Source: an uncultured Alphaproteobacteria bacterium | GTDB lineage: Bacteria > Pseudomonadota > Alphaproteobacteria > HIMB59 > GCA-002718135 | Length of the DNA stretch: 64,000 nucleotides | NCBI GenBank assembly: GCA_902560725.1 | Contig: CACEMR010000004.1 | Span: forward strand, 1-64,000 | Reading direction: 5' to 3' | In this document: piece after piece, positions 1,926-7,500 of the stretch | Layout: each line of letters opens with the position of its first letter | How positions within the stretch are numbered: the stretch's first letter is position 1 | Made by a program: the position numbers and the translations under genes | Notes under the pieces: generated by a model | What the model was told of the DNA's origin: nothing | Seen by the model: the letters and a program-made list of their open reading frames with translations, nothing else | The model's database searches: none

Positions 1926-2000
1926 TGGGGCGTCGCCAAGCGGTAAGGCACCGGTTTTTGGAGTCGGCATTCGTAGGTTCGAATCCTACCGCCCCAGCCA
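1926..2000 (+). tRNA. tRNA-Gln (anticodon TTG), CCA encoded
   Basis: Acceptor TGGGGCG/CGCCCCA, anticodon arm CCGGT-TTTTGGA-GTCGG, T-arm GTAGG-TTCGAAT-CCTAC, then G-CCA. Confidence 0.95.
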
Positions 2001-2003: not shown

Positions 2004-2030
2004 TTTCTACTAAATATTTTTAATTTATAC

Positions 2031-2054
2031 TTTTGACACTCTCTTGCCACTCTT
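2031..2054 (+). repeat. Left sub-terminal repeat TTTTGACACTCTCTTGCCACTCTT (candidate integrase arm site)
   Basis: 23/24 match to 7348-7371; internally a tandem of TTG[A/C]CACTC. Confidence 0.7.
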
Positions 2055-2057
2055 AGG

Positions 2058-2073
2058 AGCCTTTTTTAAGGCT
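2058..2073. other. Hairpin AGCCTT-TTTT-AAGGCT just inside the left island end
   Basis: Perfect 6-bp inverted repeat with 4-nt loop. Confidence 0.5.
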
Positions 2074-2206
2074 AAAGTTGAAGGTTCGAAACCTTTCACT
2101 AGCTTTATAAATTTAACAAAAATTTAACCTTTAAATATTTCATTATCAATCACATCATAGATATGTCACAAGTCAATCAGCTAAAAGTTTGTTAAGTATT
2201 TTTTAT

Positions 2207-2617
2207 TTAGTCCCACATAATTCCTTCCTTATATGAGAGATTTGTTGATTTACACTTAGGGCATTTAAAATTTTTAATTTTTTTTTCTGTATGTACTATT
2301 TTCTTTCTACTTTTCCTACAGCGCCCACAGTTGTTTACAGAACTAAATAAGAGGGTGTTGTTTTTATCTCTTGCCTCTACCAAAAAAGTATTTTGAACTG
2401 ATGCACACTTTTCACATTGGTAGACTTCATAACCATCATAGGTAAACTTTGCTTCTTTATTATTTTTATATAAATCATTTGCTGCTTGCCACTTTTTTTT
2501 TGGCAATAAATCTATTACATTCTCCAAAGAAGAGAAAAGAAAACCTATGCCAAATAAGTATTCATCGTCATGGCCACAATCATTACATTTAAAATAAAAG
2601 CCACTATCAAAATACAT
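2207..2617 (-). CDS. Small zinc-ribbon-like protein with four CxxC pairs (third gene of island operon)
   Basis: 136-aa ORF with CNDC, CEKC, CGRC, CPKC; start overlaps upstream stop (TAATG). Confidence 0.75.
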   Translation of the reverse strand: MYFDSGFYFKCNDCGHDDEYLFGIGFLFSSLENVIDLLPKKKWQAANDLYKNNKEAKFTYDGYEVYQCEKCASVQNTFLVEARDKNNTLLFSSVNNCGRCRKSRKKIVHTEKKIKNFKCPKCKSTNLSYKEGIMWD

Positions 2618-3000
2618 TACTTATATAATTCTTCTTTAACATGAGTGTTTAGAATTTTTAAAAAATCATCAAAATTATTAGGGTAAGCATTTTGACCTTC
2701 AGTTTTTATACTTCTCTTTTTAGGTTTATTTATTTTTAATCGCCATTCAGTACCATCCATAATTTCTAGATTAGTATAATCCCTGTTCCAGTCCCAGACT
2801 TTCAATTTATCTAAATCATCCCAAAATATATTTAATTGTTCCTCAGTTAATTTTACTTCTTCTACTATTAAAATTGGATTACTTTCTTCATCAGGATGAG
2901 ATGGTGTTTCGTGATATAAAGTTTGGTTTTTTAAAAATATCCTATCAAAACCTTCATTAAATGAACCAATTTGAAATTCAAAAATTACTAAATTTGACAT
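2617..3000 (-). CDS. Protein of unknown function, 127 aa (second gene of island operon)
   Basis: ORF with W..LDKLKVWDWNRDY...DGTEWRLKI...GQNAYP-type pattern; TAATG overlap with both neighbours. Confidence 0.75.
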   Translation of the reverse strand: MSNLVIFEFQIGSFNEGFDRIFLKNQTLYHETPSHPDEESNPILIVEEVKLTEEQLNIFWDDLDKLKVWDWNRDYTNLEIMDGTEWRLKINKPKKRSIKTEGQNAYPNNFDDFLKILNTHVKEELYK

Positions 3001-6000
3001 TATAATTTTATAGAAGGATTAGGATTTTTTATCTCCCCAATTTTCTCCGCACGGATATATGTAAAACGATCAGACATTGAATTAATATTTACAAAGCCAA
3101 AACCATAACCTGCTAATTCTTTTTCAAAAGTATCGATATCTTTAAATGTTTTGGTTGGCTCAATAATATGTATTTTACCATCAAGTTTTAGTGTTCTGTT
3201 TGCTTCTAATAAATATTTTCCAATTGTGTTACCCATAAACGATAAACAGAATATGGCGTGATCTAATGTTTCATTATCAAGAGTTGTGTGAGAGAAATCA
3301 CAGGCAATTACATTTTGATTATACGCAACATGATCAAAGCTATGTACTTCATGACTATCTTTTAAGGCATCATATATTTGTGCTTTGCCACATCCAAAAT
3401 CGCCTATTACATAATCAGAGCGTTCACTAAATACTTTAATCATTTCTTCTATTGGAACAACTGTCCATGACTTTCTATTTTCTTCATACATTTCGTGGTA
3501 GTGATCCCACTCTACTCTATCTTTTGATAAACGATTGTGCAGTTTTTCACTTGAAGTATTGTACCAACGTGCATTCATCTTAGAGAAATCACCAAAGGCA
3601 CCTATTCTTTTTTTAATATTATCTTTGTCGCCAGGTATAAACTGTGCTTTTATTTTTGTACGTTCGATAATAGTCTCTTCTCCACTACTTAGTCTGTCTA
3701 ACCACTTTTTAATATCCTGTACAACTTGAGCTTGAGTACGAATATTTTGATTAGGTAGTTGTCCATCAATTACTGCATCACCAATTGTTTTCTTAAACTT
3801 AATTCTTTCGTAACGTGATTTGCACCATGACCATTCCTGCCCATTTACTTCTGCTCTTGTTAAAGGAATAATAACATTCACTTTATTTTTCTGCCCTTGT
3901 CGATAAATTCTACCAATTAATTGTTCAAATTCTGCATTTGTCCAAGGCATAGAGTTAATAATCAAATTAGAACAAACATTTTGTAGACCATTCACGCCAG
4001 TACCAATGGTACTAGTTCCAATTAAAACATCAAGCTTACCTTTTTTAAAATCATCTATTCCTGACTTATCATCACCTGTGTGGAAACCTACACTCCATCC
4101 AGCTTTAGTAATTTCATCATATAGAAATTTATCAATATCTTGGCGATAGTGTGTATAAATTAGTGTCTTGGGTTTGATGTGTTTTAATATTTCTTTTATT
4201 TTTGCTCTAGTAGTAATCTGCTCAACATTAAGTGGGAACCATTTATTTTGAAGGGCTTTGAATTCGTCAATGTATTCAGAGCAATCAACTTCAATATCAT
4301 CCTTTATATCTATTGAAACAGTCATTGGAATTTTCATTCGCAGGCCATTAGTCATTAAACGCTGGTGCAATTTCATACAGTTTTCTTCACTAATTTTTGG
4401 TTCTAAATCATCATGTTTTTCTCCAGTAATCATTTCAATTAAACCGATACCTTCCTGCAGATTATTAATTACTGGGGTTGCTGACATGCCAAGAACAGCT
4501 AATTTGGGATTAGTTTCTCTTAATTTTGCAATCATAGAATTAATAATCCTTTTACGTTTAGACATTTTTTCAGGATCTTTTTGTTTTGCATAGTGGATTT
4601 CATCAATAACCACAAATTCAATATTTGTATTTTCTAATAACTCCATTACCTTGTCATCAGAATCTTGTTGTTGGAAAGCCTCAAAATTTAAAACCAAAAA
4701 CTTATTTTGGTTTTGATCTTGTAAATTTTGGTATTCCAAATTTTTTGTTTGAATGTAGGTCCCAGGGAAAATTGTTCCTATCTCTTCTTTCCAATTAGTT
4801 ACCACAGCATTTGGACAACACACTAAAGTTAATTTAGAGTCTATTACTCTACTTGCTAAAATAGCCGATAAAGTTTTTCCTGCGCCAGTTCCTGACCAAT
4901 TACCAACTGATCTATCCTTAACAACCCTGCTAGCAGTTCTAAGCTGCATTAAATTAGGAAGTGTTTTTTTGCCATCAATTCTAAAGTTGTAACTTTTTGG
5001 AATTACTAATTTTTCTGCTGCATAATATTCTTCCAGGAACTCCTCTCTAACTTTGAAGGTATATTTGTCTCTCGATTCTGTTTTTTCAATTTCGTTAATC
5101 ACCTCTTTTTTACTGTTTGAGTCAAATAATTTTTTCCATAACTTATTTTTTGCCGACTCTAACAAATATGTAACAGCTTCCTCATCGGAGTTTCTAATGC
5201 AATACTCTAATGTCTCAAATGTATCTTTAACATTAACTGATGGTAGATCTTGTATTATTTCGCTCCCCAACTCAAAGTTTGTATTGAGAGTGCTTTCGTT
5301 TATTTCTTGCAAATTCTCTTCACTAAGATCAATATTCTCTTTTGAGTTTTTATTATCAAAATATGTATCTAAAGATGACTCTTCTTTTTTTATAAATTTA
5401 TCAACCTCTTCTTTTGGTAGTTTATTATTTAAATAATCATTAATAAATTTTTTGGAACTAGAGTGTTTCGATGGCAATCCAGTTTGTTGGAAAATTAGAT
5501 ATATTTCTGAAGCCGTAAGTTTACTTACATAACTTTCAATTGAGTTGATAAAAGCTATTAATGATGATCTTGACCAAACTATTCTATTTGTATTCCTTGT
5601 TTTACATATTGGACAATTAACATTTCTTTTTAATCTTTTTTGTATAGAAGTTTTCCATATATGGTTTGGGTCATTTAAACATTTCCACCAAAACTGATTA
5701 CCGGAATTAAATTTAATTTTTGAAGCTTTTATGCCATTCTTCTTTTCATCAAATTCTTTACCAAATTTTGGATAAATTTTTGTTAAGGAATTAGTTGTTG
5801 AAAGAAATGAATTATTGCAAAAAGGACATTCTTTAACAACCCCGGTTCTGTACTTTATTTTTTGTTTCCAAATATGGTCGTCTGCCACATTACACTTCCA
5901 ATATATTTCTTTAGATGAGTTCGGATTTATTTTTTTAGGATCTAAATCGTTTTTCTCTTTATTTATCTGCTTCGCTATTTCTGGATATAAATCTAATAAG

Positions 6001-6971
6001 GATTCATTTTCTAAAAATTTACTGCCTCTACAATATGGACAACCCATATTTTTGGAATTTGCATGAAGAGATCTCAGCATGTGCGATAAAGTTAACTCAA
6101 AAACATGGTCTTTATTTTTATCACATTGCCACCAAAACTTTTTTCTATGTGATGCAATTGCATCACCGACCTTCTCACTATTAAGAGTGTTTGAGTAATA
6201 TTTTATTAATTTTGGATAAAGAGCTGAGACAGAGTTTGTTTTTGATTTTGTATATTTTGCACAAAATTTACATTTAATTTTTTTATCAATTTGTTTTATT
6301 TCATCTTTAGATAATTTTTTACTATAACTAGTTGCTCTTGCTATTGGTGTTTTAAAGATATGGTCTTCACCCTTTGGGCACTTAATCCAAACATCAAATT
6401 CACTTCCTGGGGAAAGTCTTCCAATTTGTTCATAACTAATCTTATACTCCTTCTTATCTTTTATTACTGACTTATAAATATTTGGAAATAATGAAGAGAA
6501 ATTATTTTCTTTATAAAATCTATAAGATTTTTTACCTAGATTGGCTTTAGTGTTACATTTATAACAAAGAATATTAGCTTTAGTTATAGAATTATATCTG
6601 CTGTTTATTGATTGCTGCCAAATATGATTTGGGTCTTTTTTACACTTCCACCAAACAACAGTACTTGAGCTTATTTTTATTTGACTATTTTTTTTAAAAT
6701 TCTTATTTTTTTTAAAATCGAAATAATCAAAAAATGCCTTTGGAATTTTTTTTAATCTTTCTGCCTCTTTACATTGTTTACAGCCTTGTATTGTTATCTT
6801 GTCGTTTCTTAATCTATTTCTTGGAATTTGTTTCCACTCATGACCGCTCTCACATTTCCACCAAACTTCGAATTTATAAGCTTTTGTAATATCTTCTATT
6901 TTTAATTTTTTATTTTTTGTAGGGTGGAATTCTTTTACAAATATATCTGGTAATGGCAGTTTTGAACTCAT
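3000..6971 (-). CDS. Large multidomain protein: six N-terminal zinc-ribbon-like repeats (DUF4379/PF14311-like), SF2/SNF2-type helicase, C-terminal Rrp8-like (Methyltransf_8) methyltransferase
   Basis: Repeated WWxC..(D/G)H.W...R...C..C units; Walker A GTGAGKT, VIDEIHYAK, LGMSATP, QLIGRIYRQGQ; C-terminal DFGCGKAQIYDA...ACDFSHTTLDNETLDHAIFCLSFMGNTIGKYLLEANRTLKLDGKIHIIEP, resembling Rrp8. Confidence 0.9.
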   Translation of the reverse strand: MSSKLPLPDIFVKEFHPTKNKKLKIEDITKAYKFEVWWKCESGHEWKQIPRNRLRNDKITIQGCKQCKEAERLKKIPKAFFDYFDFKKNKNFKKNSQIKISSSTVVWWKCKKDPNHIWQQSINSRYNSITKANILCYKCNTKANLGKKSYRFYKENNFSSLFPNIYKSVIKDKKEYKISYEQIGRLSPGSEFDVWIKCPKGEDHIFKTPIARATSYSKKLSKDEIKQIDKKIKCKFCAKYTKSKTNSVSALYPKLIKYYSNTLNSEKVGDAIASHRKKFWWQCDKNKDHVFELTLSHMLRSLHANSKNMGCPYCRGSKFLENESLLDLYPEIAKQINKEKNDLDPKKINPNSSKEIYWKCNVADDHIWKQKIKYRTGVVKECPFCNNSFLSTTNSLTKIYPKFGKEFDEKKNGIKASKIKFNSGNQFWWKCLNDPNHIWKTSIQKRLKRNVNCPICKTRNTNRIVWSRSSLIAFINSIESYVSKLTASEIYLIFQQTGLPSKHSSSKKFINDYLNNKLPKEEVDKFIKKEESSLDTYFDNKNSKENIDLSEENLQEINESTLNTNFELGSEIIQDLPSVNVKDTFETLEYCIRNSDEEAVTYLLESAKNKLWKKLFDSNSKKEVINEIEKTESRDKYTFKVREEFLEEYYAAEKLVIPKSYNFRIDGKKTLPNLMQLRTASRVVKDRSVGNWSGTGAGKTLSAILASRVIDSKLTLVCCPNAVVTNWKEEIGTIFPGTYIQTKNLEYQNLQDQNQNKFLVLNFEAFQQQDSDDKVMELLENTNIEFVVIDEIHYAKQKDPEKMSKRKRIINSMIAKLRETNPKLAVLGMSATPVINNLQEGIGLIEMITGEKHDDLEPKISEENCMKLHQRLMTNGLRMKIPMTVSIDIKDDIEVDCSEYIDEFKALQNKWFPLNVEQITTRAKIKEILKHIKPKTLIYTHYRQDIDKFLYDEITKAGWSVGFHTGDDKSGIDDFKKGKLDVLIGTSTIGTGVNGLQNVCSNLIINSMPWTNAEFEQLIGRIYRQGQKNKVNVIIPLTRAEVNGQEWSWCKSRYERIKFKKTIGDAVIDGQLPNQNIRTQAQVVQDIKKWLDRLSSGEETIIERTKIKAQFIPGDKDNIKKRIGAFGDFSKMNARWYNTSSEKLHNRLSKDRVEWDHYHEMYEENRKSWTVVPIEEMIKVFSERSDYVIGDFGCGKAQIYDALKDSHEVHSFDHVAYNQNVIACDFSHTTLDNETLDHAIFCLSFMGNTIGKYLLEANRTLKLDGKIHIIEPTKTFKDIDTFEKELAGYGFGFVNINSMSDRFTYIRAEKIGEIKNPNPSIKL

Positions 6972-7347
6972 TTACTTAATACTCAAAATTATTAATGCTT
7001 AATATTTAACACATCTTAGAGCCTCATAAAAGTTAAGTAAGAACAGGAAAACGGTAAAATTTGAACTATTACTTCCTTGTAGTTAGGTACTTCGCTAAAG
7101 AAATCTAATTTTGTATTATCGGTGTTTTTGTGTTTTATGCTTTTGCAAACCTTTAGAATTACTCGATAAAATTTGAAACAGCATAGAATCTCATAGGTGT
7201 TTTTGGGTGTTTTGAATTTTAAAACAGGTATAGCGGTCACACAGATACCGTACATTTGGTAAATTTTAAAATTTAAATAATAATATAAGCTTTCTCTAGT
7301 TTGGATGTATTTGTTTACTTTTCTAAATTTGAAGTCGAAGGTTTATT

Positions 7348-7371
7348 TTTTGACACTCTCTTGACACTCTT
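7348..7371 (+). repeat. Right sub-terminal repeat TTTTGACACTCTCTTGACACTCTT
   Basis: 23/24 match to 2031-2054, same orientation; tandem TTGACACTC x2. Confidence 0.7.
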
Positions 7372-7427
7372 TGTACCGCATTTTTTAATTTTTTAAAAAA
7401 AATGTACAAAGAATTCTGCGGAAAATT

Positions 7428-7500
7428 CGTCGCCAAGCGGTAAGGCACCGGTTTTTGGAGTCGGCATTCGTAGGTTCGAATCCTACCGCCCCAGCCAAAT
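7428..7500 (+). repeat. Right 73-bp direct repeat: 3'-truncated tRNA-Gln copy lacking most of the 5' acceptor strand
   Basis: Identical to 1931-2003; upstream bases are GAAAATT instead of TTTGGGG, so the acceptor stem cannot form. Confidence 0.95.

Follow-up and report, generated by a model that had tools for sequence, protein, structure and literature searches.

The conserved, effective unit of the region analysed here is a single 1,323-aa protein, in which DUF4379 zinc fingers, an SNF2-type motor and a Rrp8-type methyltransferase are fused, and the island at tRNA-Gln that carries it is a non-autonomous mobile element with this protein as cargo. The fusion family is apparently undescribed; literature searches by domain name and by terms for the fusion turned up no published description, and neither PADLOC nor NCBIfam was found to have a model dedicated to it. 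The original prediction for this DNA was an undescribed, NTP-driven three-gene system; the sequence data retain from it an apparently undescribed, presumptively NTP-driven methyltransferase on a mobile island, while the three genes as a system were not retained. The window is the whole stretch of DNA that was analysed, 64,000 nucleotides in length, and the features referred to below are as follows.

1926..2000, + strand: tRNA-Gln(TTG), intact, the insertion target (ARAGORN; Rfam 59.6 bits)
1931-2003, + strand: left copy of a 73-bp direct repeat, starting inside tRNA-Gln (repeat comparison)
2033..2054, + strand: putative left arm-type site, 11-bp-period pair TTGACACTCTC/TTGCCACTCTT (shuffling p=0.004)
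2207..2617, - strand: P3, 136 aa, multi-zinc-ribbon island cargo (ORF and Pfam scan)
2617..3000, - strand: P2, 127 aa, TAATG-coupled on both sides (sub-threshold DUF6438; phrog_24571, 3.6e-10)
3000..6971, - strand: 1,323-aa fusion of DUF4379 zinc fingers, SNF2 motor and Rrp8-type methyltransferase
3030..3623, - strand: Rrp8-family methyltransferase, aa 1117-1314 (Pfam Methyltransf_8, 1e-39; PDB 2zfu)
3837..4958, - strand: SNF2-type motor, aa 672-1045 (Pfam ResIII/Helicase_C/SNF2; motifs; Foldseek)
4992..5576, - strand: helical middle domain, aa 466-660 (alignment and AlphaFold model)
5580..6938, - strand: N-terminal module, aa 12-464, six DUF4379 treble-clef zinc fingers (Pfam 1.7e-54; cysteines)
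7350..7371, + strand: putative right arm-type site, TTGACACTCTC/TTGACACTCTT (11-bp periodicity in 0/2000 shuffles)
7428..7500, + strand: right copy of the 73-bp repeat, an attR-like tRNA-Gln fragment (repeat; Rfam)

The island at tRNA-Gln and its cargo

Three minus-strand genes joined by TAATG overlaps at 3000 and 2617 had been placed on a tRNA-targeted island, and the ORFs, both junctions (TAATG on the coding strand) and the island were found as described. The segments 1931-2003 and 7428-7500 are identical over exactly 73 bp, the right copy lacking the 5' TGGGG of tRNA-Gln. The site is empty in the congeners G015 and G078, where the SH3 gene and tRNA-Arg come right after tRNA-Gln, the order without insertion being DUF4396 / tRNA-Gln / SH3 protein / tRNA-Arg / GT61 / SppA / GroES. 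From the 73-bp tRNA copy and this uninterrupted gene order, the island was delimited to 2004-7500 (5,497 bp), which carries all three ORFs and exceeds the span originally given. Both characteristics of a tRNA-integrating island were observed: a tRNA segment is duplicated at its two ends, and relatives have the site unoccupied. The G+C content of the island is 29.4% versus 28.8% for the genome. The arm-like pattern occurs twice in the genome, once per island end and nowhere else. No recombinase was found within 2004-7500, and no helper integrase for the tRNA-Gln island was detected in the genome. The sole PF00589 match of the genome is a tyrosine recombinase on contig C28, beside its own small genes. 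The first codons of this integrase (L195 2288-3370, G000:C28) resemble read-through of a tRNA 3' end, and small membrane-protein genes lie in a run beside it; the region is probably a further island, located at another tRNA.

The same tRNA-Gln was observed to be an insertion hot spot across the genus, occupied by small cassettes without integrase (L159 89-6025 in G003, L160 936-2500 in G011, and L164 533-1863 in G005). Each cassette has a tRNA 3' fragment as its boundary and contains one or two genes, with a tandem arrangement in G003; the cargo includes SDR oxidoreductase, GST-like, fasciclin-like, and other genes. A direct repeat with an 11-bp period is located ~31-33 bp past the tRNA 3' end, its letters varying between cassettes (L159 and L160), and the periodicity reached p ~0.003 by shuffling in four of the six cassettes. 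An 11-bp-period repeat also precedes the right copy in the present island and in G003_c2. The cassette repeats look like integrase arm-type sites of differing specificity.

The two small proteins were examined as possible partners of the fusion. P2 matched DUF6438 at 9.5e-5 and 23.1 bits, below the 30-bit cut-off, and of the AlphaFold modelling proposed for the cargo, the fusion gave a usable result (pLDDT 82), while P2 alone was uninformative (pLDDT 46). A three-gene defence operon, with P2 and P3 as required partners of the fusion, is favoured by TAATG at both junctions, which implies co-translation, by the zinc-binding-like character of P3, and by an island cargo consisting of these three genes only. 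The three ORFs are indeed co-translated in this genome, but there is no support for three genes conserved as a system. In the search for co-conservation, a homologue of P2 or P3 was found at 0/80 related genomic loci, and none was present, even at E 10, among 9,345 ORFs, comprising the surroundings of these 80 loci, three plasmid records, and a first set of DUF4379-bearing viral contigs. Neither protein matched phage or plasmid records, and viral contigs searched by single-sequence pattern with either of them gave nothing. In class-wide samples of 372 genomes, P2 and P3 have one weak relative each, located elsewhere. That of P3 (L192 7407-7952, G156:C4) belongs to another family of the order, occurs without the big gene, and lies directly downstream of a tRNA-like remnant scoring below the Rfam threshold, for which reason P3 looks like independent island cargo. 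Against these results, the operon of required partners is improbable, and P2 and P3 are island-specific accessory cargo with a possible regulatory role.

Domain architecture of the fusion protein

The protein had been described as a zinc-ribbon/helicase/Rrp8-like fusion. The helicase and the Rrp8 domain were recovered, and the zinc modules were refined to treble-clef DUF4379 fingers, with CxxC at aa 64, 136, 234, 311, 382, and 453. The helical middle domain is kept in family members regardless of the type of N-terminal module. The motor contains Walker A GTGAGKT (694-700), DEIH (790), SATP (830), and GRIYRQGQ (1020), and the methyltransferase contains DFGCG (1191), ACDF (1223), and CLSFMG (1242); thus Walker A, DEIH, SATP, motif VI, DxGCG, and LSxMG are all intact in the 1,323-aa protein. 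The AlphaFold (AF2) model was built from a 49-member alignment. In Foldseek searches, the motor resembled INO80/Snf2h (TMt 0.66-0.71), with Chd1, Mot1, and CSB/Rad26 also returned, so that motifs and fold together show two RecA-like lobes with SF2 motifs and an SNF2-like fold. In line with what had been noted from the letters, no nuclease domain was found in the three proteins by Pfam and PADLOC scans, the ResIII match covering the motor only.

Methyltransf_8 scored 137.1 bits, its cut-off being 27; control genomes also contain matches above this cut-off, and the Pfam match alone was therefore not taken as proof of Rrp8 kinship. The isolated domain gave a single PDB sequence match, human nucleomethylin (2zfu, 8e-26), the alignment taking in both the Rossmann core and the extension that precedes it, beyond the SAM motif alone. 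A profile of 28 methyltransferase sequences matched 2zfu at 1.4e-52, and Foldseek returned the same structure (TM 0.87, 2.2 A). By these sequence and model comparisons, the domain goes beyond a generic SAM fold and is specifically of the Rrp8 type.

Distribution, N-terminal exchange and genomic neighbours

A genome-wide scan seeded by full-length relatives on Crinalium and Rhodococcus plasmids yielded 94 confirmed relatives, of which 80 were kept; as two short patterns were used, this number is a lower bound. The relatives, many of them MAGs, are distributed over at least 13 phyla, bacterial and archaeal, and on plasmids. They were found in Cyanobacteria, Verrucomicrobia, Planctomycetes, Myxococcota, Acidobacteria, Chlamydiae, Dependentiae, Chloroflexi, Bacteroidetes, Spirochaetes, Actinobacteria, Proteobacteria, Thermoplasmata, and Nitrososphaeria. 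Within its own order, the fusion gene is present in 1/162 genomes. The relatives are mostly stand-alone, with a patchy spread on plasmids and phages; homologues without the two partners do exist, as the original prediction had considered, but they are not the single housekeeping genes considered with them. When viral contigs were searched by single-sequence pattern with the 1,323-aa protein, nothing was returned, whereas a core profile succeeded and revealed 22 viral contigs encoding the core, among them some of 308-379 kb. In the tree, the 1,323-aa protein forms a long branch within a large mixed clade, its exact position being unsure.

Ahead of the core (aa 466-1323), family members carry DUF4379 zinc fingers, INT_rpt repeats, DUF723 repeats, or modules of the sigma-70 region 4 / alpha-CTD-like kind. 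One well-supported clade alternates between zinc fingers (L037) and INT_rpt (L061 and L075), and modules of the DUF723 type match phage homing-endonuclease families. L095 and L172 encode INT_rpt proteins in separate genes next to the core. These stand-alone arrays (L172 1983-7594 and L095 10232-11020) accompany cores without an N-terminal module of their own, and INT_rpt-like genes that Pfam does not confirm lie upstream of another such core (L083 5804-7739). At all three loci, the arrangement is as if a recognition module were supplied in trans. The planctomycete relatives L055 and L059 have long N-termini, in which segments like sigma-70 region 4 and RNA-polymerase alpha-CTD are followed by a zinc finger. 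One family member gave a TAL-repeat match (3.2e-19); a regular-expression search did not recover the repeat, and no weight is given to the match. Taken across the family, the N-terminus would look like an exchangeable candidate recognition module. At the other end, the methyltransferase is absent in the relatives L063, L074, L078, L102, and L106, which keep the middle domain and the motor; the motor may therefore work without the methyltransferase. In L074 and L078, a clean stop follows the motor.

In 13 loci of the Polyangia type (one of them labelled Acidobacteria), a MmeI / type IIG / DrmMI-like N6-adenine methyltransferase is located directly upstream on the same strand, and three more such loci start at a contig edge. 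In Bacteroidota, PDC-S02 lies directly downstream of the fusion (L087 and L088), with a Mrr domain in L088. Other neighbours are KAP PDC-S49 and DarT (L105), an AbiL pair (L096), and an FRG PDC-S15 gene (L065), in agreement with the link to defence originally drawn. Unrelated genes are nearby in the other loci, and for many relatives no defence gene is recognisable in the neighbourhood. Some relatives are linked with defence genes in the sense of association, not enrichment, the neighbours having been picked by eye with no control.

Proposed function and comparison with known systems

Module swapping and the mobile, phage-linked, and partly defence-linked distribution suggest a role in conflicts between hosts, phages, and other elements. 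In the reading preferred here, which is tentative and has somewhat less than an even chance, the fusion would be a dsDNA translocase directed to its targets and would bring an adenine methyltransferase to bear in conflicts between mobile elements. The zinc fingers would provide recognition of a duplex-DNA site or structure, the SNF2-type motor would translocate along the duplex with ATP, and the methyltransferase would modify adenine, at N1 if Rrp8 is followed, on that DNA or on RNA emerging there. For substrate specificity, Rrp8 is the sole guide, by analogy. The role in conflict would most simply be host- or island-encoded interference with foreign elements; the gene on large phages also fits an offensive role. 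The lack of a nuclease or other killing domain in the fusion counts against the preferred reading, as do the relatives without the methyltransferase and those without a defence neighbour. A bolder version is a long shot: a modular weapon, for defence or for use between elements, with which an SNF2 translocase guided by sequence would place N1-methyladenine, a mark that blocks Watson-Crick pairing, on invading DNA or nascent RNA and silence it without cleavage. If the fusion acts on foreign elements, an RNA-type, N1-adenine-like methyltransferase would join the defence repertoire, in which methyltransferases usually protect self DNA. The bolder version would also allow a kinship between fused Rrp8 domains of this kind, from bacteria or phages, and the source of the eukaryotic rRNA enzyme. 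Stand-alone relatives in cultured Sorangium, Phormidium, Polaribacter, and Nocardia make the proposal directly testable.

The strongest rival to the translocase in element conflicts is a phage or mobile-element gene that serves the elements themselves, in replication, in transcription remodelling, or in marking their own nucleic acid against the defences of the host, with cellular copies captured or carried. The 22 viral contigs with the core argue for it, as do phage genes near some of these copies (terminase in L166, DNA ligase and MazG in L180, and dNMP kinase in L169), the tree, in which rows from phages are interspersed among those from Bacteroidota and cyanobacteria, and the match of the motor to the phage helicase family phrog_62 (9.3e-41). 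However, the methyltransferase domain of the 1,323-aa protein matches no phage family in PHROGs, many cellular copies reside in ordinary chromosomes with no phage genes near, and the pairing with a DNA methyltransferase in the 13 Polyangia-type loci is a stable cellular operon. This explanation is considered rather unlikely, though better placed than the following one.

A non-conflict enzyme was also considered, whose SNF2 motor would act at RNA polymerase like RapA/CSB, while the Rrp8 domain would put N1-methyladenosine in host rRNA or mRNA. Yeast Rrp8 and human NML, which among characterised methyltransferases are the closest, do install m1A (N1 of adenosine) in large-subunit rRNA (PMC6085284), and the CSB/Rad26 and Mot1 motors among the Foldseek results and the sigma-70 region 4 or alpha-CTD-like N-termini of the two planctomycete relatives point the same way. 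The patchy mobile spread, the module swapping, and the near-absence from its own order are unlike housekeeping, and such an enzyme is accordingly given little credence.

Among known elements, tRNA-associated islands include tycheposons as well as additive flexible genomic islands in which tRNA 3' ends recur (PMC10872708). The present island shares with them tRNA insertion, a duplicated tRNA fragment, variable cargo, and occurrence in streamlined aquatic bacteria; it differs in being only 5.5 kb long and in having no recombinase aboard, the tyrosine recombinase carried by tycheposons included. The methyltransferase has in common with nucleomethylin/Rrp8 (2zfu) the extension before the SAM motif and the (F)CLSLMG motif, whereas Rrp8 is a nucleolar eukaryotic enzyme without an SNF2 motor or a zinc-finger array.

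The SNF2-like helicase DrmD of DISARM is among the best PADLOC matches of the fusion, and the Polyangia-type pairing of the fusion with a type IIG/DrmMI-like methyltransferase recalls DrmMI-DrmD. The score against DrmD was 34.3 bits with a cut-off of 610, DrmA/B/C are absent, and DrmB (MZB/DUF1998 domain, PF09369) had no match in the genome, which is ~90% complete. DrmD is not known to have zinc fingers or a Rrp8 domain. The BREX helicases BrxHI/BrxHII share motor similarity with the fusion (37 bits), and PglZ (PF08665) had no match anywhere in the genome. Membership in DISARM was rejected on the low DrmD score and the absence of PF09369, and membership in BREX on the absence of PF08665, as the original prediction had anticipated. 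Type ISP restriction-modification enzymes combine a recognition module, a dsDNA motor, and a methyltransferase in one chain. Unlike them, the fusion is without a nuclease, and its methyltransferase is of the Rrp8 type, not the N6-adenine DNA type; in overall design, it is likened to these single-chain translocating enzymes, with a module, a predicted motor, and a methyltransferase in one chain.
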